In this document: one piece after another, positions 1,200 to 64,000 of the stretch
Position numbering within the stretch: the first letter of the stretch is position 1
Layout of the letters: each line of letters starts with the position of its first letter
Assembly: GCA_033439295.1 (NCBI GenBank)
Contig: JAVTLE010000017.1
Span: 1,178,001 to 1,242,000, forward strand
From: Deuterostichococcus epilithicus
Taxonomy: Eukaryota; Chlorophyta; Trebouxiophyceae; Prasiolales; Stichococcaceae
DNA length: 64,000 bases
Direction of reading: 5' to 3'
Position numbers and translations under genes: made by a program
The notes under the pieces: model-generated
The model's input: the letters and a program-made list of their open reading frames with translations, nothing else
What the model was told of the DNA's origin: nothing
Databases searched by the model: none

Positions 1200-3048
1200 G
1201 TATGCGCCGTCCCCGGAGCGACGTACTCGCCAGAGTATGAGGAGAAGGTCGGCGCCTACGAGCGGCGATGGGACGAGGTGTCGCGTGCCGAGGCCGGGGC
1301 GGCGGCTGCGGAGACGGCGGCGGCGGCGCGGCTGAGCCTGCGGCACGCTGACTGGCACCAGTCGCTGTGGCAGTGCTGGCGCAGCCCGCTGCTCAGTGAG
1401 AGTCCCGATTCCAATGCAACCCCCGACTGCTCTGGCGCAGAGGCCTGCTGCGCTTGGTGGTGCATGCCGCACGGTTGCGAGTTGCGAGAAACATTGGTAG
1501 GCATCTGCGGAAGCAAAAAAAGGTTTGATTATCGGCGGGTATCTATCCGAGGTTGATGCGCCAGCTGTGGTGTGGCTGGCATCGGCCCTGGAGGGATACA
1601 TCTCGAGCTACACAGCGACGCCAGCATCCCTGCCTGATTCTTGATGCAGAGAGCGCTTCGGACCCTCACCTGGAAATCGCCCATGTTGTTTGAAACGAGG
1701 ATCTGTCTTCGGATGCCCCTGCAGCGCTGGGCGTGTGGCTAGCGCCGCCGATCGCGCATGGCTGCACCGCGGTGTCGGTCAAGCAGCGCGGCGCCTGCGG
1801 CTGTCTGGGGGAGACGCTGGGCTGCCTGGCTTGGACCGCCTGCTGCTGCTGCTACCAGGGTACGCCTGGACAATCCTCAAGCAACTTCACCCTGGGCGTT
1901 GATGTACTTGGAAACTCTGGGAGGCCAACGTCACCATGCCATGGAGGACCGCACGGCGACAGCAGCTGCCGTTGCCCATGCTGCTGTGCTGGCCCAGCCA
2001 ACACCGCGCATGCTACTGCGCAGCCTGCCGGCCACGCGGCTGCAGCGCGGGACCTTGGCCTGCCTGCGGCTTTGACAGGTGCTGCTGAGGTCGTCAACAT
2101 TTGGACCGCCAGGCGAAGGCTTGACTTGAGAAAGGAACACGGGCACTGGAAACTGGGCAGCATGCCGTGACGTCCTGCTTCCCTGCTTCTCGCAGTGTCG
2201 CTGATGGAGACGACTCGTGCGCATGCTGCTGCACACAAGCTTTCGGCATACAATGTCCTGTCGGAGATGCGCGTACTGCTGCGCACCGATTGCGGCGTTT
2301 GTCGGTGTGCCCAGGATGCATCGAACGAGATATCCTGGTTACCATACAAATTGCTTCCTGCTTGCCGCAGTGCCGCTGTCGGAGACGCGAATGCTGCTGC
2401 GCACCAACTTCGGCATTGGCGTGCCAGTCAGCGGCCGCGTGCGGCGCGAGATGCGGGAGCAGGATGGCCGCGACGTCTGCTGCTGCTGCCTGTGCACGCT
2501 GGCGCAGGAGGCCGCTGAGTTGCGGGTGTGGTGCCCTGTCTTCCCGAATCCAAGCTGAGAGGCACTCTCATGCTGAGGGATTGAAGCTTTGGCTGCTAAT
2601 GCCTGTGGACGCTGGCGCAGCGCGCCGCCGAGCTGCGGGCAGCGCAGCACCACTCAAACCCTTCCGCCCAATGCTGACATCGCAGGCAGACTGTGGCAGA
2701 GCCGCCGTTGGGTGGCCAGAATGAAGGCAGTCGCTCAGCCTGAGCCGGGTCGCAGCTGTTGGACGACGAATGCTGCCAGCAGGTCCTGCCCGCAGCAGTT
2801 GGTCTGCCTGCTGCATCACACAGACGCCACTCGGACCGGCGCCACGCCATCCAAGCTTTTCAGCGTCCACCCTGCATCTGGCCAGACCTGCAGTGCTCCG
2901 GTCACTGCCGCGATTCGAGCGCCTGTGCCTGCTGCTGCAGTACCAGAAGCGGCTGGCGGCGGCTGTGGAGCAGCAGGCCGCCCATTCGCCAGGCAGCTGG
3001 CCGACCGGCGAGCCGCCGCCGCAGCAGGACATGGGGAATCCGCCATGA
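1200..3048 (+). CDS. PLAC8 (Cys-rich) domain protein
   Basis: Four exons keep phase: 1200-1395, 1725-1859, 2371-2525 and 2941-3048 (stop TGA). The join gives about 197 residues plus any missing N-terminus. An N-terminal charged helix (YSPEYEEKVGAYERRWDEV) precedes DWHQSLWQCWRSPLL, then a Cys-rich segment (GACGCLGETLGC, then a TACCCCYQ turn). The closing signature is CCCCLCTLAQEAAELR, which matches the end of PLAC8 domains (CxxCxLxQExxEL). The C-terminal tail is Pro/Gln-rich. PLAC8 proteins are small, usually membrane-associated proteins linked to cell size or metal handling in plants; the exact role here is inference. The gene is convergent with the SET-domain gene. Its second intron holds decayed copies of exon 3. 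The true start was not found. Confidence 0.8.
1985..2335 (+). repeat. ghost copies of a PLAC8 exon
   Basis: The real exon at 2371 opens with a segment encoding PLSETRMLLRTNFGI. Related stretches lie upstream in the same intron near 1990-2040, 2190-2260 and 2262-2325, each with a variant of the core gcgcatgctactgcgcac. They carry frame changes and do not extend into the rest of the exon. Confidence 0.7.
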
Positions 3049-3958
3049 GCTAGTCGCCAGGCAGAGGAGGCAGAACGGGCAGTGAAGGGCTGGAGACAAC
3101 TCTTGAAGATGTTGAGCCCATGATGGGGCGGCCTGCGACCATCATGGTTGTCGCGATGCGACGCACGTATGTGGAGGGGCAGCCACAGGAACACACAAGG
3201 TTAAGAGGCGAACAGACATCGGCAGACCGCGGCGAACATGCTGTCCACACATTTTGACGGAAATCATTAGGGCAGTCCAGGGTTGTGTTTAGTGGCGCAT
3301 GATCATGAAGGTTGTTCATGATTAGGCAGACTAGCTTAGGGTTCGGGTGTGATTTCAGTTTTGTACACAAATGCAAGACACTTTCTTGGGATCTGTAATT
3401 GCAGCAACAACCTGTGAACAGGAGCTGCAACACGTCGGTCCATGAGGCAGCGCAGCCGCCCAAGCTGCCGCCACGTGCGAGCTTACCCTATGTTGCGGAC
3501 TGGCCCTTCCAAAAATACGACTAGATATGATAGACTTGTGCCGAACGTGCACGACAGCGGACCATACACCGACAAGGGGGGCATGCATGTAGGGATGGTG
3601 CCATGTTGCAGCACAATCACTACTGGATCGATGGCCGAGCAGGTTTTACGAACTTCATTGACAGTGAGTGAAGCGCATGACAGCGTCAGCCTGCTGTCGC
3701 ACCACCCTGACTTCTCTGACACCAGGCATTTAAGGCGCTGCAGCCGATGCAAGCCTCGCCGGGTCCATTGCAACAACTTGCACACCCCTCTGCAAGCAAA
3801 CGTGGGGCGTCCTATTCCTGTACTCATCCCCAGGTAGCACGCGCGCCTGCCCGCCTCCCCTGCTCCTGCCTCCAAAGGCTTCCGCCAGGACCAGCCCGTG
3901 CATATGCAGAGGGCAATGAGCTGCTGTTCGAACACCTTCTCGTTCCCTTGCCCCATAG
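3049..3958. other. convergent 3' intergenic gap
   Basis: This gap lies between the PLAC8 stop and the stop of the minus-strand SET gene. I see no exon, repeat array or RNA gene in it. It presumably holds both 3' UTRs. Confidence 0.4.
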
Positions 3959-6900
3959 TCACTCCTGCGCGAAGGCGCCGCGCAGCTCCGGCAGCAGGGC
4001 CTGCAGCCGCGCGGCGGCGGTGGCCTCGTCGCCAGTGGGCGGCCCCGCAACGCCATGCCGCGCCAGCACCACATCCAGCATCGGGCTGCCGTACACCTTG
4101 GCCTGATTCCTGTTGTCATCGCGAGCCAGGAGGTGGTGGCATGCACAAAATTTTGGGTGGCCAACAGAGTCGGGTGAAAGCATAAGGCTGCGGCACCTGG
4201 ACTGCGTCTAGCATGGGGCTCCTGCACATCTTGGCCTGGTTTACCAGGTCCCAGGGTTCTTAGGTTCCAGGGCTTGGAAACCATCAGGAAGGGCTGAACA
4301 ATTGATCTTGAAATGTTTGCTAGCAGAGCGTCATGTGCCGCTGCATCAGCGCCGTATCGAGGCGGCAGCAAGCGGTTCAAGGCCGATCGAGGACGACTAG
4401 AAAGAATGCAAGAAAGTACGACACACTCGAGCTGGCTTGGGACCATCAGGAGGAGATCCGGTCTGCCAGCACTGCCTTGCAACATGAGAGGATTGGAATG
4501 GCACATGGTGGGATGTGAACAGTAAGGATGTTTCACCTGAAGCTCGTGGTCGCCTTAAATACAGTGACCAGGAGGAAGAGGGGGTTGCCTGCCACCGTAT
4601 TGACAAGGAAGAAAGAGAAAGAGCGAAGCCGAGACGGGCAAGACAGACAGGCTTACCTGAAGCTCCAGCTGGCGTTGGAGGACCGGGGTTTGTCCATCGT
4701 CAGGATCATACCAATCTGAAGGGAAGATATGAAAAGGAAGATATGAAAGCGCAGGAGACACAAAGGAAGTGGAGTTGATGTGGTACCTGAAGCTCCAGTT
4801 GGCATTGGACGACCAGGATGAAGCCGGGTTGTCCGTCACCGCCGCCAGCAGCGCCTCGCGGTGGCCCTCCCGCACGTACGCCCCGTTGCTGAAGCTCTGC
4901 GGGCACGCGGCAGAATCACGGTGTGTGCCAAAGGCCTTCTGCTTGCGACCGGGGGCGTCCGGCTGTCTGCCGAAAGCCCAGCGCACAATGGCAGGCGGCG
5001 GCCCACTGCAATGCGTCCGGAGACCTGTCGCGAGACGGCATGCGGTGGACCGCGGCCGTGCAGAACAGTTGGCCAGCCACCTCGAGGACAGAGCGGCTTT
5101 TCGTCCGATTGAGGTTTTCTTGACGATGTTCAGTGCATTGTTGAAAGCTGCACAGGCAGGCAGCTGCAGTCGGCGTCGGGCAGGGACAGACAGCTGCAGC
5201 TGTCAGTGCTGAGGTGATACTTGAGCACGTATGGGCCTCTGTTCCAATTGGCATGTCAGAGGCCTACCGGCAGGTAGCAGCAGTCGGCGTCGGGCAGCGA
5301 CAGGCAGCCGCGCCGGTCGGTGCCGAGGTGCACCAAAGCGTCGCCGTGCGGCCGCTGCCACCCCGACAGCGTGCCCCACAGGAAGCCCGACCTGTACCTG
5401 GAAGCGTAGACAGGACAAGTGTACATCAGTTTTCAGATGCAAGATGGACCAAGATGTGCAGCAGCGTGTCCGAGTGTGGTCGCTGCCGGCTGCGACAGCG
5501 TGCCTCACACGAGACCCGACTGATACCTGCGGTGCACGTGGTGGAGAGTGTCAGGTTTATCCAACAGCTTCGTGCCGACGGACGGCGCCAAAGTGGGCCT
5601 GCCGCCATCCTTGTAGGGCTGCCGCACAGGAAGTCCGAGCGGTCCCTACATTGACAGGTGGGACATCATGTATGCATCGTGCACGAATCGTGTTTTGAAC
5701 TCGGGCATTGGCGCGTATCTGTATGGCCGCTGCCACCCCGACAACGTGCCCTACAACAAAAGCTGGAGCAGTGCCTGCGTTGCAGAGGTGCTGGGGGTCG
5801 TGACGCCTGAAAATACATGGCGACGGCATGCGAGCCGTGGGCGTGTCAAGGGAGCTATTGCGCTTGCTAGCCAAGGCTCAGCATGGCGAGTTCCACCCCA
5901 TGTATCTTTCTGGGACGAAATGCAACGGCTCAAGGGCATTGTTGGGGCGAACTAGGCGGTGGTGGCCGCACCCGCAGCGCTACCTGTTCCAGCTGTGCTA
6001 AAACCAGGGCAGAAGAGCCGCACATGCAGCTGATGCTCGCCCACAGCACAGTTCGGCCGTGATTTGAGGACCGCCGCCCACCACACCAGTAGGCGTCAAC
6101 TTCCGGCTGCTTCTTCGGACTGTCTGCCTCCGCCGCTACAGCCGCCCGTGGGAGACAAGACCAGCAAGCGGGAGTATTGACAACGCCGGCGGAATGAACC
6201 ATCTGTAGGTATACCTGCGGGCACTTTCCGCCGCTTGGAGCCACACGCGCCAGTGGGGAACGGGACCGCGCATGCGGAAAAACAGGACAGCGTGTTTGCA
6301 GATTCAAATTCGATTAGTAGATTCAAAAACCGCACCGGTAGGCGTCCTTGCCAGCGGGCTTGTCGGGCTCCTTCGACGCGGCCATCCACATGCGCGAGTG
6401 GAACGACTCGTACTGGGTCGGCACCACCCAGTTGCGCGTCTCCGCCAGCAGCCGCGCCAGGTCGTGCATCGCCGCATGGCCGGGGCCCTGCATGGGACAC
6501 AGCAGTCTGAGTGGATGTGTGAGACCAGCTGTGAATGTACGATGTAGGGTGACGTGCGAGCAGGCCAGATCGTGCATTGCCGAGTGGCTGGGGCCCTGTT
6601 CTGTGGTTTGCGCATGCAGGCGGATTGGTGCATGAACGCTGCAAATGCCGAAAACAGAGATCTCTTCTCGTCAACCGCAGAAGGCTTTGTGCTGCGTCTT
6701 GTTCCTGGGCAGTGCAGCCACCCGCAATGAGTGGCCTTGCCGGCTCCTTGAGTGTCTCGCAAAGACTGCAGACTGCAAATTGCTGAAGACACTTGGCAGG
6801 GGCACTCTGGCAGTGCGCCGCTGGGCCAAAGGCTGTAGCTGCTGCACCTTTGCAGCAGCGCGGCCAGCTTGCAAAGCGCAGGCAATAACTGCGCCACCGC

Positions 6901-9900
6901 CGCCACTGCTGACAGTCAGTTATCCTTAGGAGCCGACTGGATCAAGAAGGGACATCTTAGGCAAAGAGGGTTTGGAATGACACAGGCGTGACGCTATCGC
7001 ACCTGGGTCTGCAACAGCGCGGCCAGCTTGTGCAGGCATGCACGCACATCATCGCTGTCCGCCTTTCAGTCGTGCTCTGGGGACGACCTCCAGTGCAACC
7101 GAAGGGAGATGAACGGAACGGATGCGCACTTGTGACTGCAGCAGCGCCGCCAGCTGGCGCAGGCAGGCCCGGGCCTCGTCGACGGTGCTCGGTTCCCGCT
7201 GCATGAGCTCCTCCAGGGCCTCCAGCGCCTCGTCAGCCGCCGCCTCCTGCACAAGGGTTTGGGGATTAGAGTTTTCAAGATGAGTCCCTCCAGGGCCTCC
7301 AGCGCCTTGCCAGCCGCCGCCTCCTTCAGGTGCCGGCGCGACTCAACCATTGGAGCCGATCTCCGCCGCGGGCAGCCGACAGCCCGCGGGGCGCCGGCGC
7401 ATGGAGCGCCAAGAAGAGCCCAGGATTGGTCATGTGAACGACTGGCGATGGGCATGGCGACTCAGTCATGGAGCTGCTTCCGCTGCGGGCGGCCGTCAGC
7501 CCGCATGGCGCCGGCGCATGGGGCGGCAGGACCGGTCATGCGGACGAACGACGATGGGCTTGGCCTCATCTGTGCGAGAACTTCAGTTGTCTTTGTCTTT
7601 ATCTTCCTGTGAAAGGCTTGGTGTTGGAACGGAAACCCTAAAACCTGCAACGGTGTCGGGGCGCACCTCCTCAGCGCGGCCCTCCTCCGCTTCTGCGCCC
7701 GGCTCCGCGATGGACTGCTCCCTCTCTTCGTCCCTCTTGTCGTCTACACCGCCTGACGACTCCTCCTGTTCCGATCCGGAAACACAAGTGACTCCTGCAG
7801 GTCGATGCGTGAGACTGCGCGCTGGCGGCATAGTCTTGCCGCTACCCGCTGACGACCCCTCCTGCTGGATCAGAAGGGCGCAGACAGGAAACACGGAGCA
7901 GCAAGCCACAGGGCAACCGACGGAAGACCTGCATGCCGCCTCAGTAGCGTCCGCCGCACATTACACTCGTGTACCCTGAGGAGCAGCAGTCTCAAAAACA
8001 TTCGGTATATCGGCAGGTCACACTGTGCCTGCACCCACCTCCTCGTCGTCGTCGCCGCCGGCGTCCTCTGGTTCCTCCTCGACTTCCGCCTTCCGCGGCC
8101 GCCCGCGCGGCCGCTTCGCGCCAGAGCCGCCTGCAGGACAGCGGTTGAGCCATGGGTATGATACGGTACGCTGCCAGGTCCTCGTTGGCGGACAACAGGC
8201 AGGCCACTGCACGTGCAGGGCAAGCGCTTGCGCTAACCTGAGACAGAGGGTTGCAAGACCAGGTGCAGAGAGGTCACCAAAAATCCAGCACTGAAAGAAT
8301 TCGAACCACTGATGCAACTGCACTGCAGTGCCGGCGTCACTGTGCCCAGTGCTTCCCCAATGACTCAGCTCGCTCACAGCTGGCACTGACGAATGGTCAT
8401 TACAGCGCACCCCAGTTGACACTTTGCGCGGAGACGAAACTGGTTGTCAAGGTGCTTGCCCGCAACAATGCCATTCAAACCTCACTGGTTATGTCTCCCA
8501 GCATGGATGCTGGCCTCTCCTTCGAACGCCTTTGATCCCACATTGGAGGATGTAAAGTGGAACAAGGATCTGTCTGATTGACAATGGGGGAGTTGGCGCG
8601 ACAACCAGGCTGAGCGTGCTGGAGGTTGCGGTGTCGCGGCAGCCAAGAAGACATCATGCATGTGCTGTCGTTTGGACGAGACGGAATCCCCGAGAAGAAA
8701 TAGGGACTCCACAGAAGAAGGACTCACTCGACACGGCGGAGCCGGCGCGACGGCCCAGCTGGGCGCGTTCGAGGTGGCGGTCCGACGGCGGCGCCGGCCG
8801 CCGCAGCCCGCGGCTGGCCGTCGGCCCAGTCAGCATGTTGGGGTGCCGCACCTGTGCGTCCGGCGCCAGCTGCTGCCGCACCAGCGCCGCAATGCTACGG
8901 GAAAGAGCACGAAGAAACAATTGCAACGAGTTGGTTGGCGCCATTCACCAGATGGCGGCAGTGTCTGGGTGCGTGCGGGCATCCAGCCGCTGCTGTGCCA
9001 GCTGCGGTGGCAGAGCGGAATGAACAAACGTCGAGCGGTCATCGGATTGAGAGGCATGGAGCAGAGCCTACTGAGCGAAAAGTCACGTCGGATCTGCCAT
9101 GTGTGGCAACGAGCCCAACAGAAACCCACAGCCTGATATGATAGGCTCTGGCATTCGCCCTCAATTTCATGACTGCAGTATGCCCGCCGCCGCGGTCGAT
9201 ATGATCAGGTCTCGTGCAATGGTACACAAGGCACGATGTAATATCCGCACCTACTGGCCTGCGAGTCGTGGTCGGTCCACAGGCAGTGCAGCACCACCAA
9301 ATCGCCCATTCAACAGGAGCAGTGTTGGCGGTGATATCCTCTGAAATTTCAATTTCGGGGATGCGAGGAAACCGATGTTGCTGATGAAGCGACCGCGAGC
9401 CTAGTCGCACCGGTTGGCCTGCGAGTCGGAGCCTGTCCACAGGTACTGCAGCACCTCTGTGTCGCCCAACAGCCGCAGCGGGCCGTCCTTCTGCGCCGCA
9501 ACAGGCGCAGCTTGGCAGTTTTGGAGGGCACTGATGTCTGTGCGGCCAGGCAGCAAACACACGCAACGGCATGCTGGCCCGCGGTCGCGTAGGGCGGTCC
9601 GCCTGCGTCCGGCAGCACCGGGTCCGGTGACCTACGGCAGTCAGCCGTCGGCCCGGGCGGCTGCCCGTGCAGCTTGTCAATCACGTCAATGCGCAAGCGG
9701 ATCTGGGACAGAGATGTTGAGGCTGCCCACAGCTGCTGAACCTGCCTGGGTCCGCCAGACGGGAACGGGAACAGCAACCAGGCCACGGGAACAGGGTGTC
9801 ATCCCGACAGGCATGCACGTGGGCTGTGCACCCACCCGCGCCTCCCGCGGCTGCCGCCGCAGGAACAGCTTGGCCTTGTCCAGCGCGGTGACAAGCGCCG

Positions 9901-12900
9901 CCAGCCGTGCCGCCCGCTGCTCGTCGGCCTCGGACTGCGCGTCCTCTGGAGCAAAGCCGTCGGCTGCAATGGGAAGCCGCGGATTTGTTGTTCAACGTTG
10001 AAAATGGGAAATTAATGGCCGCCAGCCACGCCGCCCGCTGCTCGTCGGCCTCAGACTGCGTGTCCTCTGAAGCAAAGCCGTCGGCTGCAATAAAAAGCCG
10101 CAGATTCATTTTTCAACTTTGACATTGGGAGAAAAATGGCCGCCAGCCGCGCCGCCCACTGCTCGTCGGCCTCGGACTGCGCCCCCTCTGAAGCAAAGCC
10201 GTTGGCTGCAACAGGGAAGCCCACTATCTGCTTGCAAGCCGTCAAGCCAGAGCATCAGCGAGGACGGCAGCAGTATATAGAATATCTGATGTATAATGAT
10301 TACACATGTAGCCGCCAGCCGCGCCGCCCGCTGCTCGTCAGCCTCGGTCTGGAGCAAAGCCGTCGGCTGCAACAGGCAAGCCCACAATTTGCTTACGAGC
10401 CCTCAAACCAGAGCGTCAATCCATGATTCCGGAAAAGTGAAGGGGATGACTGTTGCAAGGCGCACCCCCTCCAGCAGCTGTGGCAGAGCTGCATGCGTGT
10501 CTTCGACAACCCACGGCACGAGCGCCCCGCCCAGCGCACCCATCCAACCAAGGAAGGACTCGAACGGGAAACCAGCAAAGGGGCAGAAAGGCGAGGGAGG
10601 GCGCACCCTCCAGCAGGGTCGGCAGAGCGGCGTGCTCGTCTTCCACGAAGCGCAGCACGAGCGCCGCCCAGCGCACCACCCAGGTCGGGAGCGGCGCCCT
10701 CCCGTCAGGCCGTGCGCACAGCACCGACCTGCGGGTGATGTGAGGCACGGCCAACCTCAGCCGCAACTGGAACGAATGACACAAAGCGCGCCCGGGAAGT
10801 TGGTGAAGATGCAGCGTGCGGTTGGGCGGCTGGCGGCGATGCAGCGCACTGGCAACCAGGCACGCTCTGCTGACGCAATGCCGCCTGCTGCGGCTGCCGG
10901 ACATCGCGATTTAGTCCAGGCCACAAGGTTGCTCACTTGCGCAGGCCGGCGGCGGAGAGCGCATCAAAGTCGCCCTGCGTGACGCCCTCCTTGACGGCCC
11001 GCAGCAGCAGCGCGTTGCGGTCCAGGAAGCTGTGCTGCGCCGCCAGCACCTGCGCCACAACATCGAGACGTCTCTTCGGATGTGCAGTCGATATCAGACA
11101 CTATGGATGCAGCAACAGCGCGCTGCGGTCCAGGAAGCTGTGCTGCGCCGCCAGTACCAGCGCCAGGGCATAAACATTGCAGGTCGGATTTGCAAAGTTG
11201 CTTTCCATTGCAGGCACTGTGCAGGCAGCGGCAGCGGATTACGATGCAGGGTGCGGCACCCGCCAGCGCCTGCAGGACATGGCAGCAGGACTGCAGCAGC
11301 CTGTGCTGAGCCCCGAAAGGAACGCAGCGCCGCTAAACGCCTGAAGTGAGACCGGTGTTCGACTCGACCAGGACGAAGGAAGACGGAGACGGGATGCACG
11401 GCCGCCATGGCAGGGCGGTGGGTTACAATGGCCACCGCCGGCACGGGCGCACAGCAAGTGCTACGGGGTCTACCAAGTCATATTTAGGCTTAGGGTCCCC
11501 TGAGGCAAGCCCTGCGGTGGGCCGCGGCCGGCTGCTGTGACGATGCAGCCATGCGGTTCTGCTGGGGGCTCAAGGCCAGGCGGGAGAATTTCTTTCCAAC
11601 CTTGCTACGCTAGGCCCTTAATTCCAATAAAAGCCTTTGCCTTTGCTTACAAAGGGTCGGGCGCACCTGCTGCTGCGGCAGGCCGTTGGCGTTGTGCGAG
11701 GTATGATACAGGAAGGATCCGCGGCAGTCGGCGGCGCCGCAGAGGCACACCGCCGCACGCTGCTCCTTTTCCGACTCCGTCTCCGCGCCGTAATCAAGCG
11801 TGAGCTCCTCGCCCTGTAGTTGCAGATTTTGTTGTTAGGGATATTACAAATCATTTCTTGTAGTGCCGAGCACCATGTGCGAGTTCTGACGGCGCCTCCA
11901 CCGCACCTCAGCACAGGCTGTTCTTGCTTCGGCCCCTCCCCGCTCTCCACGGCATCGTCTGGAACCAGAACTTAATGTCCTGATGAAGCGGCCACGCATC
12001 CGTGCCACGCAGTGTCAAATACCTTTCCTCCTTCACAGCTGCTGCAGCTGCTTGATTGAGCAGAATCTTGACAGCAAGCGTCCACTTGCGCCGCAGTTCC
12101 GCAATGGCCCATGCGGTACAGATGGTAAGCTTTACAAGACGTTCATCAGGATCGAGTGGGGGATCCCCTCAAACATCAAGGCAGTCAGGTACGGCAGGCG
12201 CACCTCTGCAATCGCGCGCGTGGTGTAGATGGCGAGCGTCAGCTGGCCGCCGGCCACCATGGTGATGGTGCGGCAGCTGGGTTGGCAGGAGTGCGCCATG
12301 CGCGCCGAGAAGCAGCCCTTCGCCGACGCCTGCACGCAGGGAAGGAGCTTCTTGGCATGCAGATCTTAGGTTTCAGGGTTCAGGATTAAGGGTGCGGGCG
12401 ATGGGTCTTTAGGGTTTAGGGGCACGCCGAGAAGCACCATTCTGCAACAGCCACCTTGCGCAGGAGGGCAGCATGGCATCCTTTCGAAGGGTTCAGCGTT
12501 TACGGAGGATGGTACAGCAGCGTGGGCAAGGCGTAGAGGTCGGTGCCCCAGCGCGGCCCCGGACCAGCAGAGGCTGTACACACAGCGCTGCATGCGATTC
12601 CAGTTGCACGCCTCACATGACTGGCTCTGTACTGCATGGCCTCATGTCAAGGACAGACTGCCAATGCAATTGATGCAATGGCTGCTGTGGTTGCATGCAA
12701 CGGCACGGCGCCGCCACGGCAGCTCACAACAGGACAGACACTGCAAACGCTGCAGGCGCACTTGGCCTCAGTCACGAGCGTCCAGCGGGAGAAGCATCAG
12801 CGGTGGGGGACACAATTTGAGCACGTATAAATCGTGCAGATGCCTTAGCACTCTTCGGCAGCAGGAGAGACACGCACGTCCACGTGGATGATGTCGTAGC

Positions 12901-15900
12901 CGGCAGCGTCCTGCTTCGGCCGCGCCAGCGTGCTGTGGTACCACTCCGGCAGCCCCGGCCGCATGCGGGAGCGCTTGCCGACGGCGCCGCCGCGGCCTGG
13001 CGCCCCTTGCTGCAGGCAGGGGACGGAACACTTCATCATCATGGCACTGGCGGCAAGGAGATACCACCCGGGCAGGCGCGGCCGCACGCGTTCCCCAGGG
13101 CACAAGCCTGTGTGCTTTGTTCTGGGTCTTCAAACCATTCGGGTAGTGAGACAAAGTCACCGAGCTCACCTGGCGCTCGGCCCAGGCCCAGGGGCAGTAC
13201 ATCTCGCCGAGGTACTCGCCCACGAAGTCGCCCGGGCCGAGGCCCCCCTCCTTGCGCAGCAACACGCCCTGCCCCTGCGCGCGCCGCGGCAGATGCAGGC
13301 TTCAACACAGCATCTGAGCATCAGAGCTGTAATGTGGAGAAACCCGGCTGAAACACCTTCCAAGTCGCCGTTCTCAGCGCCGAGTCTGCAACCCACGCCA
13401 TCCGCCTGAGAACGCAAACCAACATGTGGAAGCTGACAAGGAGGCGGGACATGGATGCAGCTCAATGACGTATTTCAAAGACTCGTCGAAGTCAGCGGCG
13501 CCGATGCCGTCCCCTTTACGCAGCACCACGCCCTGCCCCCGCGCCGCGCGGGACTCTCTTGCGTTCGAGCCTCGCGGCCAGTTTAGATCTTTGGAAGCGC
13601 GGGCGCTGCCGCATGCTCACAGTCGAGATGGTGAGGGCCAGCATGTGGGTGCTGGACCATGCGCCACATATACGCCAGGCCACACGCCCTGACAGGCAAC
13701 TGCTCGGCTCACAACTGCTGTTAGATAGATGGGCTGCTTGGCTGCGAAAACGGTTCAGGTCGATCGCCATCTTTGCCGTCCCTCAAAGCACGCTGGACGT
13801 GTTCTGGCGATGCGTCGGAAGGGTGCCACGGCAGCAGGCAGCACACCTTGGGCCAGATGCGGAAGTGATCCCGGTCCTCTATCGGGCCGCTCGGCAGCGG
13901 CAGCCCGGAGCGCCGCCCGGCCGCCTTGTAGTGCCGCTCAGTGGCCTCTACCACCCTCGCCAGCGTCTGTGGGATGTGGACTGGACAGCATTAGTCCTCG
14001 AGCACATGGAGCACACTGCTCCGAACTTGCCGGCACCCACAGCATGGGCTCACTACTGTCAAGCGCTCGCTGGCAAGCGGTCCTGCTGCGGGCGGGCACC
14101 ATCGCTGGCACTGCAGGATCACAGTGCTGCAACCGAAACTGCCCAGTCGTTGACGAGTGTTTGATGCACCAAGGCAGGCCCGGCGTGTGGCCAGACGGTA
14201 ATGGCTGCTGCTGTTTTGAAAACCTCATATTTGATACTGAAAACTCGTGCCTTGCAGGCGGAGGCGGTGGCGGTGTCGCCGCTGTGGTCCGCTGCGTTGC
14301 GCAGCGACTGCAGCGCCGTCATGATGTCCCTGCGCCACATGCGCCGCAGAACCTCAGGGCCTTTCGCAGAGCCGGGAAAGCAGCGCGTGCTGGGGCCGGG
14401 CGTGTTGCCGCCTCAGTTCTTAAGTTGCCCAGGTTTCTGGGTCCCCCAGCCGCATTGCGCCAAAATGCAGCTCGAAATCACGCCACCGGAGCAGCAGCGC
14501 TGTGCGGCGGCACAGGGACTAGGTGGACCAGCCAAGGGGAGCGCGCTGCAGCGCGGCAGCCCTGCTCGCTGGAATTGCAGCGCGGCCAGCAGCCGCCGGT
14601 CGATGGAGGCTCCGTCCGCAACAGCACTCAGGCGCCCGACTCAAGCACCAGCATACAGCGACAGCAACGTCGCCCGGCGGCTGACTCAGACGCGACAGCC
14701 CTGCTCGCCGGCGGCGCTGCACCGCGGCAGCAGCTGCTGGTCGCTGGAGATGCCGGATGCGGAATGCGCTACAGTGCTCAGCAACAGCAGCAGGGCGGAG
14801 TGGCAGCCAGCTCACTCAGGGGCTGGCTCAGATTGTTGTGAAAACCCTAAACCCTGGACCCTGAAAACGTACCAGCCCTGCTCGCCGGCGGCGTTGCAGC
14901 GCGGCAGCAGCTGCCGGTCGATGAAGCTGTCCCGTGCCGCCAGCGCCGCCGCCTCGTCGCCGCCGTCTGCCGCAAACGCCTTGCACCGTCCGAGCGCCTC
15001 AAAGATGTTGCTGCATTAAATGATATCAATAAGTCTCATTAGCAATTTCGTCACACAGTCGGCGCTCAGGTGGTGCCATAGGCGAATCAATGCATCCGCC
15101 GCAGAATGCCTGCACCAGTCCAGCGCCACTATGTTGCTGCTGTGCGCGCCGTTGCGAGGTACAGGTGAAGAGTCTCCGACAGACGAACAGTGCCGCCAGG
15201 TGCACAACTTGCTGCCTGCTGGGAGCTTCTTCAGCTCTTCAGCATTGCTGGGCGCTGCCCGAAGGTGCGGTTGCGGCTGCGCTGCTGTGTGCATGATAGT
15301 TCTGGTTCCCTGCGCTTCCAGTGCGGCACCTGCGGGTGTAGCGGTCCACGCCCCAGACGCTGGCGATCTCCCACTGGCCCTCCTTTAGCGGCGGCGGCAT
15401 CCCCCGCACGATGAGCAGCTGCGACGGCAGCAAGAGCATAAGAGCAGAAAATGCAACATATTTATAGACTTGAAGGATTGAGGTGGGATCGGGCGAAGGA
15501 CGGACCTTCCTACGAGCGGCGGCAGTAGTCCCTGCGATTCCGGACTTTGCACAGCTTGGGACAGCGCCAAGTCACCGAGAGCAAGGGTGGGGCAGTGTCT
15601 TAGCGAGGTGTGGACATGGCCCGCCAGCAACTGGACGCTGCCGCAGCCCACACACTCCTCCGCCCACTCAGGCAACATTGCAACATTGCCCCTCAGAGAT
15701 GCGAACGCAAGACTGTCGCGTAGGTTGTCAGCCACCATGCTTTGCCGCCGCTGTTGGCAGCGTCTGGCCCCTGAACCGTTCGTTTGTATATATACAAAGA
15801 TACCAATGAGATCGGTCCGCACATTGTGGGCCACCATGAACTCGACGGAGGAGCCGACGCCGACTCCGCCGGCGGCGCCGGCGGTGCCACTGGCGCCCGC

Positions 15901-18900
15901 CGTCTCCGCCGCCAGGTTGGACTGCAGCCGGTCGAGCAGCGCGCGCTTGTCCACCTCCTCGCCGCCCTCAGGACTCACCTTTAATGATGAATATAGAATA
16001 TTGATTTGAAAATGAACATGAATGTTACTCAAAACCAGGTGGTGTGACTGCCGCATACGAAGCCACGTCCAGCAGCGCGCGCTTCTCCGCCCCCTCGTCG
16101 ACATCAGTGGAAACCTGCAGCTGATCATCGTGAGTGAACCAGAAAGAGCAACAGCAGCGACGGGTCTCTGCCTGCTCGCCATGAGGCGTCACCTGGCGCA
16201 GTAGACCGAGTCCCGACCCTTTTCCATGCATGCTGTGGCTTCAGCACCGTCCTCAGGAAACCGTAGGCCTCAACCATTTTCGGCCAGACAACCCGTGGAG
16301 CAACCCGAGCATTGTGGCCATGCCTGCCGGACACACACAGACACATTCTGCAAGAGTCGGAGGATCACGCTGGTGTGCAAACACACACCCTGTAGGAGTT
16401 TATGGTCTGGTAGGGAAGCTCCGCCCACGGCTCGCGACGCCACAGGCCCGGCATCTGCGGCTCGTCGTTGCCGCTGATGTGCGGCAGCATCGCCCTGCGG
16501 GACAGGTCATGCACGTTTAGGGCGCCTACGTCTTGGGATGTGATGTGACGTATAAACCCTCGAGACAAGTCCACGCAACAGCATCTCTGGACCAGCAATG
16601 CATCCTGAGGTCGGGGTCGAAGCTGGCCGCGGCCGCCTTAATGAGTCTGACGTGGAACCAGTTGTGCAGACCCAGGTTTGCAAGACAGCAGGCAAGGCAG
16701 GCGCACCTGAGGTCGGGGTCTGAGTTGGNGGCGGCCGCGGCGGCCGCCGCCCCCTGCGCGCGAGACACCTTGGGCGCCGGCGCAGGGCCCACAGCGCCGC
16801 CCTCGTCGTCGATGCTCCCCTCGCGGTTCTGCCCCGCCGCCGCGTGCAGCAGCGCCGCCAGCCTGGCGACAGGGGGGACAGATGAAAGAGCTCGGACAGA
16901 TGAAAGGTCTTCGGAGGCAAGAAAACCCTGCACACGCCGCCGTCACACCTTGCTGGTAAAAGCACGAGAACATACGTCGAGACGGAAATCACATACAGTC
17001 TGTTGATCCAGCGGCCCACGTTGGAATGACCAACAAGTTCATTGGAAGTACAGATGCTGTGACAAGACAGCTAACTAGACCGCCTTCCAGTGGGTCGATG
17101 GCATGTTACAGCGTGGGCCAGTGGTTCAGCATCTTCACGCATCCACACGTTCGTCTTCACATCGCATGTAAGGCGCAAGCAGGAGCACAAAGATTGCAAA
17201 TGAGCGATGTCCGAGTGTTCTACCAGCGGCGCATGCGCCACCACGTTTGTGCCCGGGTTCGTACCGATTCGAGGGAAGCCTTTTGTCAATGAGCAACGTC
17301 ATTATGCCTTTCAGAACAGGAACTCACCTCGAGTCCAGTCCAGTGCAGTCCCGAAGTGTTCTCGCGCTGCCGGTTTTGCGGCATGCATTTAGACCAGGGG
17401 GTTTCATGGTTCGGACACTGCCGGACGAACAGCCCAGAAGCGCACGCCGGTGTGCGGTCGTCCGGGTCCTCCCACAGCACAGCGTCTGCACTGCCGCGCT
17501 TGCATTTGGGTTGAGATGGTATCACGTTCATATTGTAGTGAATTATAATCTTGGTTGGGTCAGGACGCTGACCCCAGGTTGGAGTCGTCCGAGTCTTCAC
17601 GCAGCAGCGCGCTGACGCTGCCGCGCTTGCGTGCGGGGCCAGGCGCCGAGGGCCCCGGCGCGGCGGGGGCGCCCAGCTTCCGCTTCCTGCTTCCATTGTT
17701 GTCCAGGTCCACCGAGTCCTCCCGCAGCCGCGGCGGCCGCCTGCGAGTTGGGAACGAAAGCGTCACTTGTTCGGCAGCGTTCTGGCGGTGGGTCCGCTTC
17801 CTGCTGCCAGGTCCACCGAGAGTCCGGCGCGGACTGACAGCTGGCTTCCGGCTTATGCTTGCTTCCTTCGTTGCCATAGCGTGGCGCCTGCCTGGATCGG
17901 GTGCTGTGGATGTTTGTCAGGCTAAAAATGATGTCACAATGCGCACCCTGGGTGGCCGGCGACGGTGACGTCGTGCGACGTCGCCACGCGCACCTCCCGT
18001 TCGTGGCTCACCGTCGTCAGCGTGTAAGTCAGCCCCGTGCGCGCCGCCAGCAGCTTCAGCCGCGCCTCCACCCCGCGCAGGGCCTGCCGCGCAGGCACAA
18101 CCAGGTTGCTGTGTCAGAATAGCGCATGCTGTGTGTACCTGGCGAGAAAGGTGTTGTCAGCGCCTGGGTCGGCTCCTTACACTGCCATTTTTAATCAACT
18201 TTGATTGTTTCTGTTTCTGTTTTTGAACCTGCAGCTCCAGTGCCTCCACACCGCGCAGCTTCTGGAGTACACACTGCCGCATAGTCAGGAAGTACGCTTA
18301 GGGAGCCCCGAGCAGACCCTGGCTGCTGCGCTGCTTTGTGTGCGGCCGTCACCAGCTTCAGCCGCGCCTCCACTCCTGGCAGCGCCTGCAGCCAACCCCT
18401 CGCGATGTGGGACCACACCCTGGGGGCGGCAATGCCCCTCAGATGTCCTGGCCGACTGCGGCCATCCGTGCCGTCAGGCCCAGCCTGGCTCCGAGGTTTT
18501 GCCTGTAGCATGTTGACAGCAACACACGGCTGTGCGGAGGGCTATGCCGCAGGCCCCAGCAGTCCCGGACGCAATGCTCAGGTGTGATGTCTGGAGTCGG
18601 ACCAGGGGGAAGAGGCCGGGCCCCACCTCCGTGGCAAACGCGCGCCGCTGCGACAGGTTGGCAATGAAGCTGCGGTCGCGCGGCTGGGCGCCACCGTCGC
18701 CGCCACCGCCGCCGCCGCGGCCGCCGCCGCGGCCGCTGCCGCGCTCCCGGGCCTCCCGCTCGATGAGCTGGTGCCGCAGGCCGCCCTCCGCCGCGGCGGC
18801 GTAGCCGCCGGATGCGACGGCGGCGGCACGGGCCGACGGCGGCCGGGTGGGCACGGCGCGCGGCGGCTCCGACTTGACGCGCACCTCCGCCCTGTCGCGG

Positions 18901-24666: not shown

Positions 24667-24749
24667 GCAGATGCTGGAGAATACAGTGGTACACAGCTGT
24701 CTTTGTTTTTTTTTTGAATGGGGGATTCGGCCCGTGGCGCGGCCACCAG

Positions 24750-25450: not shown

Positions 25451-25490
25451 GTGCACACTGATCATCGAGTGTGCACACTGATTATTGAGT
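25451..25490 (+). repeat. 20-bp tandem repeat, two units
   Basis: gtgcacactgatcatcgagt is followed directly by gtgcacactgattattgagt. The two units differ only by two C-to-T changes. Confidence 0.9.
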
Positions 25491-25656
25491 TTGCAGGCAT
25501 ATCGTCGATCTCGTCAGCCAGCTCATCGGCACCGGATCCACGACAGCCTGACGTCCACAGTCAAAAGAGGATTGCAAATTTCATCTTAGATTAACCCGTG
25601 CCCTCAGCAACAGACATATACGCGAGTGCTCGCTGCCAAGCGTCGGCGAGGCGACC

Positions 25657-31490
<5,834 letters not shown>

Positions 31491-41285: not shown

Positions 41286-44200
41286 TCACTCTGCCGCCGC
41301 CGCTTCCACGGGGAAGTTGAATTTGAAGGGCTGCGCCGCTGCCGCCGCTGCTGCTTCACCGCCGCCGTCGCCGCCGGAGCCATTCGAGACGCCGGTCGGA
41401 ACGCCGGCGCCAAGGGCGCGGCTGCCCACGCGCCGCTCCCCCGACATCATGAACAGCGGCACCTGCTGCCCGCGCGCCTCGATGTCGAGCCGCCGCTGAT
41501 GCGCCGCCTGCTGCTCCATCTGCGAGGAAGAGGAAGCAGAACATCGGAACTCAGTCGCTGTTGCGCCGTAAGTCAACAACGGGATGCCACCTTGATGTCA
41601 AGCCCCATCGGTACGCCGCCTGCTGCTCCATCCGCGCGGACATACCACGGACTAGCACCTCAAGATCGAGATCTCATCCCGCAAGTGACGCAATCGACGA
41701 TCGTCCCAGGGGCCGCAATGTGCAGCCGCAGCCAAAATGCCGCCTGCTGTTCTGTCTGCAGAGAGGCAGATACTGGACATATTGATGTTTGGCGCAAGGT
41801 GTTTCCGCGACAGGCATGGTGAAATGAGCCGTCTGGCCTCGATGTAGAGCCCCGGTTGGTGCTCCGCCTTGCTGCTCATTTGCAAAGGTGACAGACGCTG
41901 CGTCAGCCCTCTACAGCGTCAGCGCCCTCTGCTGGGTGGCATCCGCACAGCGCACACGAACACGAACTATGAACATGTCACGACAAGGGGGGAGGCAGCA
42001 AATTTGAGCTCTGAAGAGCCTCTGGTTGGAGGATGCCAGGTGCCGGATCGTGCGATGCGACAGCGAAGTGATGCAGCGCGATGCAGTGACGCGCCCTGAG
42101 GCTGGCCTGCAGCTCGGCGTGCTTCCGAGCGATGCCCGCCTCGTGTTCCTCCTTCTCCCGCTGCCGCTGCGCCAGCCCCGCCGCCCGCTCCTGCGCCGGA
42201 GACACGCTTCATCACTTGCGGACAGCGACCTGTCTGTACAGTGTACAGGGTTGACCGTGAGTTGAGACTGCCCCGTGTGTTGCTCCACTGCCAATACTGC
42301 CCGCCGAGTTGCAAAACTGCCACAAAGCATGCTGACAGACCTCAGTATCAGATTCGACTGCAAGGAGAACCACCTGCGCCGCATCAGCCAGGAGCTGCTC
42401 TTCCTCCCGCTCCTTCTCTGCTTCCGACTTCCGCGCCGCGCGCTGCCGCTCGTTCTTGGCGCGCTGCCGCCGCCGGGTGCGGTCACCCTTGCTCTCGAGG
42501 AAGCCCTGCATGCATCGAGCCTCGAGCAGGCTTCAGGGTTGATGTGGGATCGGTGCTGTACGAGTTGTTCCGGGCACCTCACGGCAGTCGCCGCAGGGCT
42601 CCGGCCCTGCCGAGGTCTTGCGACCAGCTGCTGTCATGTTGGCAAGGCAAACTCATTGAGCTTCGCAAGCTTTGCAGTTTTGGCGAGTACATATTGGCCT
42701 TGATGCAAAGCAGGAAATAAAAGGCAGATGAGCCGAGCCACCCGCTGCATCCAAGCACGATCCCAGAGTCACACGACTCGTAGCAGGACAGTACCACTCG
42801 GGGCGGCTGACTCCATGCCTACTCCCCAGTGGATCAACCATACTACGTTCACGGCAATGCATTCTTGGTGGAGGAAAGATGGTAGGAAAAGTGGGAATAC
42901 AAACACTCACGTCGTCGCTGGCGGACGCCTGTGACAGGGACGTTGCCGCTGACGCAGAGGCCGCATCGTCATCGCCCGCGACCGAGCTGCCCGCGGCGGC
43001 AGACGCCGCGCCGCTGGCNGGCTCGGCCGCCACCGCTACCGCCCCACCAATGCCGCCGCCCCCATCGCCGGCCGGCTGTGCTGCGTCGGCCCCGCCGCCN
43101 ACCGCCTGCCNCGGCGTCGCCGGCTGCAGGCCCGGCTCGGGAGGCGGCTCGGCCACGAACGCTGCCGAGTCGCCGGCCAGGCCCGCGGGCTGCGCCGCCG
43201 CGGCAGGAGCCGCCGCTGTGCTGGCGGCTGTCGCAGACTGCTGCGCAGCGGCCGCAGGTGCGGCGCTGGCGCTGCGGCCAGCAGCAGTGCCGCTTCGGGT
43301 CTCGCTGCTGCCGCCTCCATCCTCGTGCAGCAGCTGCAAGTCAGCGCGCTGAAAATGAGCGAAACCCTGCCGCACCAGGTCGTGCCAAGACCGCCTGGGA
43401 TTGTTGCATTGCCTTGCGGCACACTGTGGTGCAACAGACCAGCCACGACATACTTTCCCTGAGCTGTGGGGCTCACCCTTGGCTGTCGAATCCACGTGGC
43501 AAATGCACCACGATCGATAGAAAAGGTAGGAAATATCACACCGAAAAGCGGTTGGGGTTGACGCCCGCCATCGCGCCCACGAGCGCCGGCCTGGCAGGTC
43601 TGGACGTTTTTGCCGCTTTTGAGGTCGGCTGCTGCGACGCCTGCTGCTGAATCAGCCAGCCATCCGTACTTGCGGCCGCTGTTTGCGCGCTCGCCTCTCG
43701 CTGTGCGGCCACCGGCTGCGCCGCTGCTGATGCCCCGGCATGACTGCCGTTGACGACCGGCTGCAGCCGGCAAGCTGGCTGGCGCGGCGCTGCTGCAGAC
43801 TCGGCCGCAGCGGCCGATGGTGTGGCTGTAGTTTCCTGTGCAGGCTCTGTGCTTCCCCCTGCAGGCTGCGGCACCGACGCTGGCAGCCGGCCCGGCGGCC
43901 CCTCTTCCGCCACTGCAGACTCCTCTGAATGCTGCGCCCGCTTGGCGGGCTGAGCACTGCTACTGGCGGTGGGCTGCGCTGCTGCGTCCTTCCAGCTCGG
44001 CCGCTGCATCGCCGGCACCGCGCCGCCCGATTGCAGCCCCGGCTGTGGGGCGCCTGCCAGTGGCGCGGAGGCCGGTTGCCTGCCGCGCGTGGCAGCAGCA
44101 CCCGCCGGCAGCCGAGTGGATGCACCTGTGATGTCCTGCCCACCGTTCATGCATGCTGCTGGCTCCGCTGGCCGACGCAGTGGCTCGCCGGACCGCCGCG

Positions 44201-58881: not shown

Positions 58882-59366
58882 GGTCGCGAAATCACCGTTG
58901 CACCTGCAGAAGAACCTGTGTGGGGGTTGTCCGAAAACTGCACGCTTGACAGAGCAAATCCAGGTCCGTAAGGCGCGTGAGATGGGGACCGAACTGCTCA
59001 GAACCAGCAGAGCTTGAGGCTTGGTTGTGATGATTACGCGTTGCTGCAGCGAGGCGCACATGAACTAAGTGGCCTCACCCGATGAAGCAAGGGAACTTTC
59101 TACAAACTAGGATGAGATTCTTCATCTAGACCCTGCCCATTTGTCATGCTTGTCGAGACTGCTGTCCCTGTGGTCGCATGCGCGACTCTCGTGCTCGCAG
59201 TTTCGTTCTGGGGTGTGTCTGCAGCATTTGCAAGCAGATTGGAGGCAGATTGGAGGGTGTGTCGCACAGCGTTGAAATCTGCGATTCTCAGATCACATCA
59301 CGTCCTGTCCTGTGTGGATCCTCTATCAGGAAACTTCACAGCTGACGGCAGCAGATAACGTGCAGC
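58882..59366. promoter_or_regulatory. divergent promoter region NFU/BRO1
   Basis: 485 bp separate the NFU ATG (minus) from the BRO1 ATG (plus). It likely drives both genes. No clear TATA or other element is visible. Confidence 0.45.
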
Positions 59367-62300: not shown

Positions 62301-64000
62301 TGCAGTAAGCAGAGGGAAGTACTTGCCTCCTTTCAGATTCGCAAAACTCTACGCAAGGGACGCAGATGTTGCCACGGCGGGCGCTGGACCGGACCGGGCT
62401 GCAGGCCGGCACGCTTCTTGCTGGTTGCCACATGGTCGCTGTGGGCCCATTGCAATAGACATTTGGCAAGCAAGCAGAAGCATGTGGCAAACAAGCAGAC
62501 ATCCTAAACCTGATTGATGCGCAGGTGGCGGAGATGTACCGCGGCATCACGGCAATGAACCTATCGGACACCCTGAAGCGGGAGCTGGGAAAGCCCATGG
62601 CGGCACACCTGGGCATCAAGGCGGGCCTGTTCACGGGGCTGACGTTGCGGCATCAGGCGGAGGTGTTTATAGAGGACGATGAGTGCGGCCAGCAGATCGC
62701 GTGCCTGCAGGCGCGTGTTTGTGTTTGGCCCCACCCTGTGTGAGTGCTGCCTGCATCTCGCTGATCCACCGTTCGCAAGAGGAATGGATAGTAAATTCCA
62801 CTTTCCCCTTGCCAGGGAATGGGAGCATCAGCTCCTGCTGTCCTTGCCGTGCGCCGGAGGCGCAGCGGGTGCTTATGGTGGCGCGGCTTGTGACTTTAGG
62901 TCTCCAGGCTTGACGCCCTAAACCCCAAACGTCCCGCTGCATGCACCCTCCGCAGGAGGCGCAGCGGGTGCTGGAGGCGGCGCGGCGCGAGGGCACCGGC
63001 TGGGTCAAGGTCGACCGGGAGCTCATCGCCAAGGTGGACGAGGCGTTGGCCGGCATCGGCGGTGCGCTCACCAAGGCGGAGCGCGAGAACAGCAGCCTCT
63101 ATTTCCAGGTGCCTTCCCGTGACCTCGAGCAGGCTTTGCTCTGCTTGGCTTTAGGAGGCTTGGGAGTGCATCTCGGAGGGGGAATGAACATGGGGACGAG
63201 ATCCTGAACGGGATTGTGCCGACCCTCAAAAAGTCAGAAGGCAGGAACGACAGCCTCCACAGCATTGGCTGCCAGCACAGGCGACAAAACGCAATTGCAA
63301 CTGGAAAAGGATTAGCCGCAGTGGTGCGAGCGTGTCAGAATTCATCCTTTCGGGTGATAAGCAATATATCATGGGGAATGGATGCAAATGTGGAGTAGGC
63401 CGCTGCCACACCACAGCTGCTGGTACCGTGTGCACTGCAACTTTCCTGGCACCATGCGCTGAATGTCTGTTCAACTCTGCGGTTGGGCGGTGCCATGCCA
63501 TTGCAGTGCGCCGCAGCATTGCCCGCCGCCACCTCGGAGTTCACTGGCGGTCCAGTTTGCATCGTTTCAGGACATGTAATACACTCTGAGGCACATTGGA
63601 GCATCCGCAGAGCCCACTGCCAAGGCTCTCGGCTTTGTAGCAGAATATTCAGTCTGCCGCCCAGCAGTCTGCAGCGCTCATCCTGTCCTGAGGCAATCCC
63701 AGGCTGCGCCGCCGTGTGCGGCGCATGCTGCCGGCTTTGCATTTGGCGCCACCACCGGCCACCGCTCGTTGTGTCTGTGAATTCCACATTGGGCATGCGA
63801 TTCCAGGAACAGCGAAGCATTCTGGAAAGTTGCACTTGTTGCGCTGCCAGATTGCAGTGCGTGACGCTGGCTTCGGTCCTGTGAGTGGCGCCGCCGGCGC
63901 CCGCCTCACTGATGGATCCTGTGCAGCCACTGGAACTGTCAATGGTGGCACTGATTCTCATCATGCGCCCTGCCTCTGTTTGCAGCGCGTGCCGCCGGCG
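59367..64000 (+). CDS. BRO1-domain (ALIX-like) protein, 3' cut by window end
   Basis: Nine exons keep phase: 59367-59575, 60575-60653, 60849-60947, 61269-61331, 61475-61594, 61895-61969, 62525-62710, 62956-63108 and 63986 to the edge. BRO1 domains bind ESCRT-III on endosomes and guide cargo sorting and membrane scission. The protein opens with LAVPAKRAGGFLDLKGPIG, then YYRFLTALENAIPVGKE, WTDAF, FEKASLLFNLGAIASQ, ADLSSESGVKNAARSYQ, LATLCLAQAQECFYTKAA, ECGQQIACLQEAQRVLEAA and SLYFQRVPP. All are in the order of ALIX, BROX and yeast Bro1. GC donors occur at 61595 (GCGAGT) and 62711 (GCGCGT). Whether it is full ALIX with a V domain or a short BRO1-only protein lies beyond the window. Confidence 0.95.
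59840..60520 (+). repeat. large intronic tandem duplication, about 300-bp units
   Basis: Inside BRO1 intron 1, a stretch from about 59848 to 60140 recurs from about 60235 to 60510. Shared landmarks in the same order: tcatcagaaccaga/tcatcagaaccaag, ctgctgctgcgccgtcag, tggcgctgacgacacacctg/tggcgctggcgccgcacatg, and gggccagatggaactca. It is a larger and older duplication than the ghost exons. Confidence 0.85.
62835..62910 (+). repeat. ghost of BRO1 exon 8 start
   Basis: gaggcgcagcgggtgcttat then ggtggcgcggcttg parallels the real gaggcgcagcgggtgctgga then ggcggcgcggcgcg at 62956, about 100 bp downstream. The copy lacks an AG immediately before it. Confidence 0.85.

Follow-up and report, generated by a model that had tools for sequence, protein, structure and literature searches.

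Decayed copies of exon ends in the introns of a trebouxiophyte green alga: probable relics of tandem duplication across splice junctions

Intron gain or growth by tandem genomic duplication is a described process (Rogers 1989, Gao and Lynch 2009, and Hellsten 2011, as cited in PMC4974935), is listed as one of seven mechanisms in a review (PMC3443670), and is represented by a duplication of potato RdRp that spans an intron-exon border, according to PMC4974935. Exon-like sequence within genes has also been tallied, and PMC9013439 gives the share of exonic bases with a homologue in the gene as 0.08% in fly, 0.06% in worm, and about 2% in human. Here we describe a 64,000-nucleotide stretch of the green alga Deuterostichococcus epilithicus (contig JAVTLE010000017.1, positions 1,178,001 to 1,242,000; hereafter the window) in which introns carry decayed copies of the exon ends that they adjoin. 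We call such a copy a ghost and the distance from exon end to ghost its step. The observation is real, and it is probably a dense instance of a known process, combined with a decay pattern that simple models fail to predict.

The genome assembly comprises 46.8 Mb in 21 contigs; its size, G+C content, and splice signals look like those of a green alga. Gene models came from a self-trained program used without RNA evidence. On 224 kb it predicted 469 exons with a median of 110 and 444 introns with a median of about 223, the learned splice signals being AG/GTG(A/C)G at donors and TGCAG/G at acceptors (slash, exon border). The window received ten models, in which neighboring genes are merged, and the five predicted proteins that were searched carry the Pfam domains SET and SDG2_C, NAD-binding dehydrogenase, malic enzyme, methyltransferase, NifU, and BRO1. 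The program took ghosts for exons at 4654, 30859, 36762, 37742, 10306, and 10466; the one counted as an exon at 10306 is probably itself a ghost. The enlarged sample covers 274 kb in 22 stretches, including the two that flank the window. Pair counts leave out L010 (low complexity), L018 (short-period array), and positions 3800-4500 of L015 (coding repeats), the exons of which are still counted within the 75617 exonic bases.

The intronic copies of exon ends are real. An ungapped offset scan (score of at least 20, offset 15-700) returned 62 segments of local direct repeat within the window; 15 other stretches yielded 66, and block-wise dinucleotide shuffles of all 16 yielded 0.4 (mean of five). 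The count of 66 leaves out L010, includes some coding repeats of L012 and L015, and counts one array several times. Self-comparison of the window by BLAST gave 49 pairs, 40 of them direct and 77-414 bases apart, 5 inverted, and 4 direct but remote. The 15 sites (19 coordinates) listed in the preliminary description all have a match on the site or at most 31 bases away: 16 of the 19 coordinates fall inside a local direct repeat (score of at least 18, offset 60-420), while 41882, 28654, and 41583 lie 13, 23, and 31 bases off, and the weakest matches are those at 28654 and 30751 (score, 18).

The copies resemble their own exon, as had been claimed. When 911 of 1010 junctions were compared with introns (99 were dropped for short arms or introns), 46 matched their own intron at a score of at least 38, whereas 0.4 matches were expected from length-matched introns of other loci, which were not oriented to match gene strand. 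Reversed introns and reverse-complement introns gave no match at any of these junctions. Matches were found at 25 of 234 junctions in the window and at 21 of 677 in 19 other stretches, 11 of which have at least one. This spread, together with ghost junctions in both flanks, speaks against an assembly or sequencing artefact, which we regard as extremely unlikely. A few single N letters in the sequence could be cited for an artefact, but the copies differ by about 5-35%, mainly through substitutions (37 gap openings in 2331 aligned sites), which is unlike exact misassembly repeats, and the ghosts respect splice sites. With a recognizable copy at 46 of 911 sampled junctions, the earlier statement that introns are built from such copies goes too far.

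The repeats are centered on exon ends. Two sets of 64 exon-intron pairs were obtained. In the first (offset 60-420, before the flanks were added), 56 of the exon segments end no more than 12 bases from the exon end facing the ghost, so that the duplicated unit crosses the exon-intron border. In the second (274 kb, flanks included, offset up to 200), 64 exon-intron pairs stand against 8 intron-only pairs; pairs classed as mixed or as both exon are left out, and the pairs are partly non-independent. The 274 kb contain 51 separate ghost junctions, 27 on acceptor and 24 on donor sides, in agreement with the claim that both sides are affected. Ghost copies are 14-84 bases long, and their spacers, measured from exon end to ghost, span 30-159 bases and never fewer than 30 in all 51 events, although offsets below 60 were outside the search and may limit this minimum. 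Perhaps a working splice site needs its own signals over such a distance.

The step has a median of 115 bases, with quartiles of 101 and 136 and a range of 72-186. The mode at 110-119, seen in the window and again among the 51 junctions (11 of 51), falls within the 95-125 bases proposed at first, but just 23 of 51 steps lie inside that interval, and the distribution is thus broader than stated; taken by themselves, the 15 other stretches lack a single peak at their sample size. With gaps allowed, the length of the spacer does not correlate with that of the exon part (-0.09), and therefore the step is no strict ruler; a fixed step with random phase was rejected on the same figure. Density was the other part of the claimed novelty, and ghosts do appear unusually dense in both window and sample. 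Exonic bases with an intronic copy at least 80% identical amount to 4.9% in the window (802/16425) and 2.07% overall (1564/75617). By gene model the density is uneven: the 88 introns up to 40.4 kb contain 25 ghost junctions and the 44 beyond contain 1, and the flanking stretches have 3 in 19 introns and 5 in 18. Four of the ten window models, which merge neighbors, have a ghost junction at a step of up to 200.

We consider it probable, with moderate confidence, that ghosts are relics of past tandem duplications across splice junctions that have since decayed. A short unit of about 115 bases (72-186) spanning the exon-intron border would be duplicated in tandem, and the splice site joined to the exon body would remain in use. 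The other copy of the exon end would then lie in the intron, which would be longer by one unit. The exon, effectively frozen, could serve as a reference that exposes old duplications after purely intronic ones have faded. Tandem duplication fits because the repeats are direct and local, because each ghost is on the intronic side of the exon end that it copies, because two arrays contain near-full units, and because 10 of the 51 events retain homology in the intron part (p of 0.02 or less), where about one would be expected by chance. Most events lacking a recognizable intron part would likewise have begun as full tandem units, and very recent duplications would be scarce.

The two arrays display the units most completely, with four near-full units aligned in each. 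Tandem Repeats Finder (TRF) reports 2.6 copies of 121 bases at 9897-10440 and 2.6 copies of 114 bases at 36626-37080. In the first, copies A to C follow one another at a 121-base step and a fourth, D, lies about 170 bases further on and coincides with predicted exon 27 (10306-10366); acceptors are intact in all four. The ghosts B and C differ at 7/67 sites in the exon part and 30/53 in the intron part, and a comparison of ghost with ghost in the second array gives 12/58 and 26/55. These contrasts are between ghosts, and selection on the working exon is therefore not the whole reason for slow exon parts. Relations within the first array conflict, with A and D closest by exon part and C and D closest by intron part.

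In most units the intron part is gone although the exon parts can still be matched, a point missed in the preliminary description. Duplication across the splice junction, as proposed there, fits the repeats and arrays, but simple duplication followed by decay leaves the vanished intron parts unexplained. In array 9897-10440, the exon parts of A and D differ at 2/56 sites and the intron parts at 24/54. Spacer homology is far under the expectation for neutral decay at equal rates (Fisher p of 2.6e-11), falling below 5% of the simulation in 14 of 51 events, and the mean spacer score is 19.3, compared with 32.9 simulated at equal rates and about 14 between unrelated events. Of the 17 events whose exon part is at least 83% identical, 13 do not exceed the 5% level of the simulation. 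Equal rates also predict more intron-only pairs than the 8 found beside 64 exon-intron pairs: a junction-pair share of 0.546 would be expected (p of 4e-10) in place of the observed 64/72, or 0.889; three other age ranges give 0.566-0.588. Ages were based on identity and carry a selection bias, for which a correction of 0.04 or 0.03 was added. Under these models, plain neutral decay fails to explain the pattern.

A higher rate in introns brings the duplication reading closer to the data at a cost. Doubling the intron rate fits the spacers of all 51 events (p of 0.96) and not those of the young subset (p of 0.02), which is fitted by tripling (p of 0.69). We infer that change in the exon part of a ghost is about 2-3 times slower than in the intron part of the same unit. 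For the junction share, the best of six combinations of rate and age is a factor of 2 with ages 0.10-0.6, which yields 0.826 (p of 0.10) and a similar identity spread without any exon targeting. It also counts against the reading that this fit needs a specific pair of rate and age, since ages from 0.05 give shares that are too low (0.695 at factor 2; 0.753 at factor 3, p of 0.003) and the other three combinations overshoot at 0.939-0.964 (0.964 for factor 3 with ages from 0.10). No ungapped ghost segment among the 51 is at least 95% identical, and two short gapped matches of 25 and 27 bases reach 96%. The scarcity of recent events that the fit needs could reflect assembly collapse of near-identical copies.

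The sole internal clock is likewise unfavorable. Two related genes lie in tandem in L013, at positions 1-1832 and 8189-9993, with 76% identity across 1.8 kb, introns included; their introns differ at 273/1347 sites and their third codon positions at 33/135, so that introns are no faster than third positions. Hyper-fast introns everywhere are thus unsupported by this pair, which is one locus without ghosts (own-intron matches at 0 of 44 junctions). Other candidate explanations were set aside. Base composition is too weak to explain the slow ghosts: differences are about 1.4 times as frequent at A/T as at G/C sites, which by our arithmetic would make the AT-richer spacers only about 6% faster. 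Large shifts masking spacer homology were sought by comparing 400 bases past the ghost and 1500 bases on either side, with few new partners. A dispersed element as the source of spacers was rejected, as three introns had no other copies in the genome and spacers compared between events (controls only) scored at background. Paralogues of the malic enzyme and dehydrogenase genes offered no close clock, the best other malic match being 43% identical and the dehydrogenase having no second place.

The factor may arise from rewriting of the ghost by its exon, from a property of exon-like sequence, or partly from the picking of well-conserved ghosts. The first of these would mean that, after tandem duplication, the ghost is repeatedly rewritten from the exon by gene conversion or template switching between repeats spaced by about 115 bases; the exon, which selection keeps constant, would refresh its decayed copies while intron parts drift. 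It draws on the closeness of ghost-ghost exon parts relative to intron parts in both arrays, on the conflicting relations in array 9897-10440, and on the rate factor itself, which is 2-3 from spacers and must exceed 1 from the junction share. Part of that factor could stem from the search itself, through its picking of well-conserved ghosts, and ordinary recombination works poorly on repeats so short that are also 20% divergent; both points count against rewriting. Patchy conversion tracts gave no clear signal in 37 events, with mismatch clustering at p of 0.05 or less in 1 and 0.2 or less in 12. On balance we regard rewriting as unlikely, if the most substantial of the alternatives. A further speculation, doubtful in our view, is that exons act as standing templates for their own decayed intronic copies, with a reach of about 70-190 bases that the replication fork or a repair patch would set. 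If so, intron sequence would be partly re-seeded from exons, continually.

Codon positions bear on both rewriting and a possible function of the ghosts. In 45 events, mismatches by codon position are 0.192/0.196/0.248, a ratio of third to first and second positions of 1.28 (95% confidence interval, 1.10-1.49), whereas the L013 paralogues differ at 11/269 of positions 1 and 2 and 33/135 of position 3; ghosts are therefore without protein constraint. The low ratio speaks against long independent evolution, and rewriting explains this low third-position excess better than independent conservation does, although by our own reckoning a refresh clock would give a ratio near 2, not 1.28. Indels occur in 27 of 51 ghosts, not all of them frameshifting, and in-frame stops in the ungapped part of 5 of 51, so the statement that copies are mostly frameshifted or stopped is roughly right at best.

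Two predicted proteins bear on coding status, and they diverge. In the malic enzyme gene, dropping 27095-27100 and predicted exon 21 (30859-30924) together preserves the frame, and the two Pfam domain matches rise from 170.2 to 174.3 bits and, for Malic_M, from 156.2 to 165.6 bits. The best PDB match rises from 269.7 to 289.8 bits, the first query being four residues longer at the start. Homology thus shows these two ghosts of the malic enzyme gene to be non-coding. In the SET-domain gene, removal of two predicted ghost exons lowers the SDG2_C match from 81.3 to 76.1 bits; this protein comparison does not support the ghost reading there, which is a further point against it.

It could also be imagined that ghosts are conserved because they function in RNA, where they might serve as alternative exon ends, as decoy splice sites, or as poison exons. 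The splice dinucleotide is preserved in 30 of 57 ghosts and the four acceptors of array 9897-10440 are intact, as such a role would favor. Yet retention at the dinucleotide (0.675) is not above the prediction from identity in the last 10 exon bases (0.73-0.78), codon constraint is absent, indels are frequent, and independent constraint would be expected to leave third positions far more diverged than seen. We consider an RNA-level job improbable.

The sharp border of identity near the junction admits another reading, in which exon ends are copied by a process linked to transcription or splicing that halts at the splice site, rather than by plain DNA duplication. Where spacer homology is missing (37 events), identity drops to the background level within about six bases of the junction on the intron side. 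Matches at donor positions 1-3 are no better inside an event than across events, whereas those at donor position 4 and acceptor positions 5-6 are better inside an event; the excess of exon-containing over intron-only pairs also points this way. Such copying is nonetheless very improbable. A putative donor-like signal follows donor-side ghosts, unlike at a spliced junction; the two sides are near equal in number; 10 events retain intron-part homology; and the junction bias is reproduced without targeting at about a twofold intron rate. An identity border near the junction would be expected wherever the exon and the splice signal of the working copy alone are held constant.

The individual sites in the window show the range of steps and decay. 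On the forward strand near its left end, the exon start 2371..2417 has a ghost at 2253-2299 (step 118, 72% identical) and the exon end 2479..2525 one at 2592-2638 (step 113, 83% identical). The sites that follow are on the reverse strand. Exon start 4056..4109 has its ghost at 4189-4242 (step 133, 72% identical), and the copies 4654-4687 and 4784-4817 (4654..4817), both modelled as exon, are 88% identical at a step of 130. Exon end 5268..5330 pairs with 5154-5216 (step 114, 83% identical); exon start 5364..5391 pairs with 5493-5520 (step 129, 86% identical) and has more copies at offsets 248 and 375. Next come exon start 6456..6487 with ghost 6564-6595 (step 108, 84% identical) and exon end 7130..7181 with ghost 7003-7054 (step 127, 75% identical). 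For exon start 7203..7246, the ghost at 7280-7323 (step 77) is 91% identical, and the 33-base spacer is without homology. Two exon ends follow, 8728..8792 (ghost 8579-8643, step 149, 66% identical) and 9411..9468 (ghost 9251-9308, step 160, 76% identical). The array at 9897..10440, recognized by its TRF period of 121 and by alignment, consists of exon start A (acceptor 9963/9964), ghosts B and C, and copy D. At exon start 11001..11049, the ghost 11109-11157 (step 108) is 94% identical in its exon part with a weakly alike spacer, and exon start 13223..13280 has a ghost at 13487-13544 (step 264, 79% identical). A homologous spacer accompanies the ghost 14696-14769 of exon end 14873..14946 (step 177, 81% identical). 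Exon ends 16707..16738 and 17573..17637 have ghosts at 16605-16636 (step 102, 84% identical) and 17446-17510 (step 127, 69% identical).

From 24136 on, the sites lie on the forward strand unless noted, beginning with exon start 24136..24171 and ghost 24064-24099 (step 72, 81% identical). In the malic enzyme gene, exon start 26805..26888 has a ghost at 26655-26738 (step 150, 68% identical) and exon end 26928..26975 one at 27053-27100 (step 125, 75% identical), which includes the 6-base ghost exon 27095-27100. The same gene has exon end 27584..27613 with ghost 27684-27713 (step 100, 77% identical) and exon 28791..28814 with a weak ghost at 28677-28700 (step 114, score 18). Three copies at 30745..31036 comprise ghosts at 30751 and 30859 and the exon start at 30973 (steps 108 and 114). 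Exon start 32499..32512 has ghost 32384-32397 (step 115; gapped match of 25 bases, 96%), and exon start 35003..35048 has ghost 34910-34955 (step 93, 85% identical). The second array comprises four copies of an exon end at 36626..37080 (steps about 114; TRF period 114, alignment). Two exon-start copies at 37725..37912, both modelled as exon, are 81% identical over 77 bases (step 111). Exon end 37968..37996 has ghost 38112-38140 (step 144, 76% identical, score 18), and exon start 38388..38429 has ghost 38292-38333 (step 96, 69% identical). On the reverse strand, 41469..41877 contains an exon start with copies at offsets 112, 236, and 360. The BRO1-domain gene, again forward, has exon start 62956..62986 with ghost 62857-62887 (step 99, 87% identical) and a spacer that is not homologous.

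Several other repeats were recorded alongside the ghosts. Telomere-like words are enriched in predicted introns, both in the window and in other stretches, with CAAACCCT present 14 times against 1.85 expected and CAGGGTTT 8 times against 1.48, and they occur in the spacers at 7247, 14873, 62956, and L014 3845. The window also has a direct duplication of about 270 bases at 59864-60513 (offset 388, 74% identical) inside one long predicted intron, and a perfect 27-base tandem pair at 54294-54345 outside predicted genes. Elsewhere, L018 8294-8860 is a short-period array whose offsets mostly fall close to multiples of 73-76 bases, L015 3888-4448 is a coding repeat in a predicted exon with offsets mostly multiples of 48 bases, and L010 6930-9505 contains dense low-complexity direct repeats up to 2.5 kb apart.

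Traces of gain in intron length and content fade, and such gain is therefore poorly documented. Where a few percent of the junctions of a compact genome are ghost-marked, direct measurement of the rate of duplication, the unit size, and the fate of the copies could become possible. That exon and intron parts decay unequally points to a process outside simple models. In searches limited to open-licence papers, none of the listed titles or abstract openings concerned an algal genome dense in exon-end relics with a modal step.

Compared with described systems, the ghosts share with introner elements a mass change in intron content, as outlined in PMC3443670. Introners form a dispersed family, and three ghost-bearing introns searched against the whole genome matched nothing but themselves or nearby sequence. 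Intron gain at staggered double-strand breaks, described for Daphnia in PMC3443670, is alike in producing direct repeats through local repair. There, short repeats flank the new intron; here, copies of 14-84 bases lie inside an existing intron, one copy being the exon end and the other intronic. Unannotated tandem exon duplications and mutually exclusive exons, as treated in PMC9013439, likewise place exon-like sequence in introns of their own gene. Mutually exclusive exons keep their frame under protein selection, whereas the copies here are partial and, by their codon-position mismatches and the indels in 27 of 51, do not keep it. The 2.07% found here at 80% identity or more is far above the fly and worm values of PMC9013439 and like that of human, with its much longer introns, though the methods differ. 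Tandem genomic duplication is the closest system: a direct duplicate lies across or adjoins a splice site, the copies are direct and near each other (40 of 49 self-comparison pairs and the arrays), and the potato RdRp case, as given in PMC4974935, resembles the acceptor cases here. The differences are that here existing introns would lengthen rather than new ones arise, that a single gene can have many events, that the unit has its mode near 115 bases, and that exon parts outlast intron parts.

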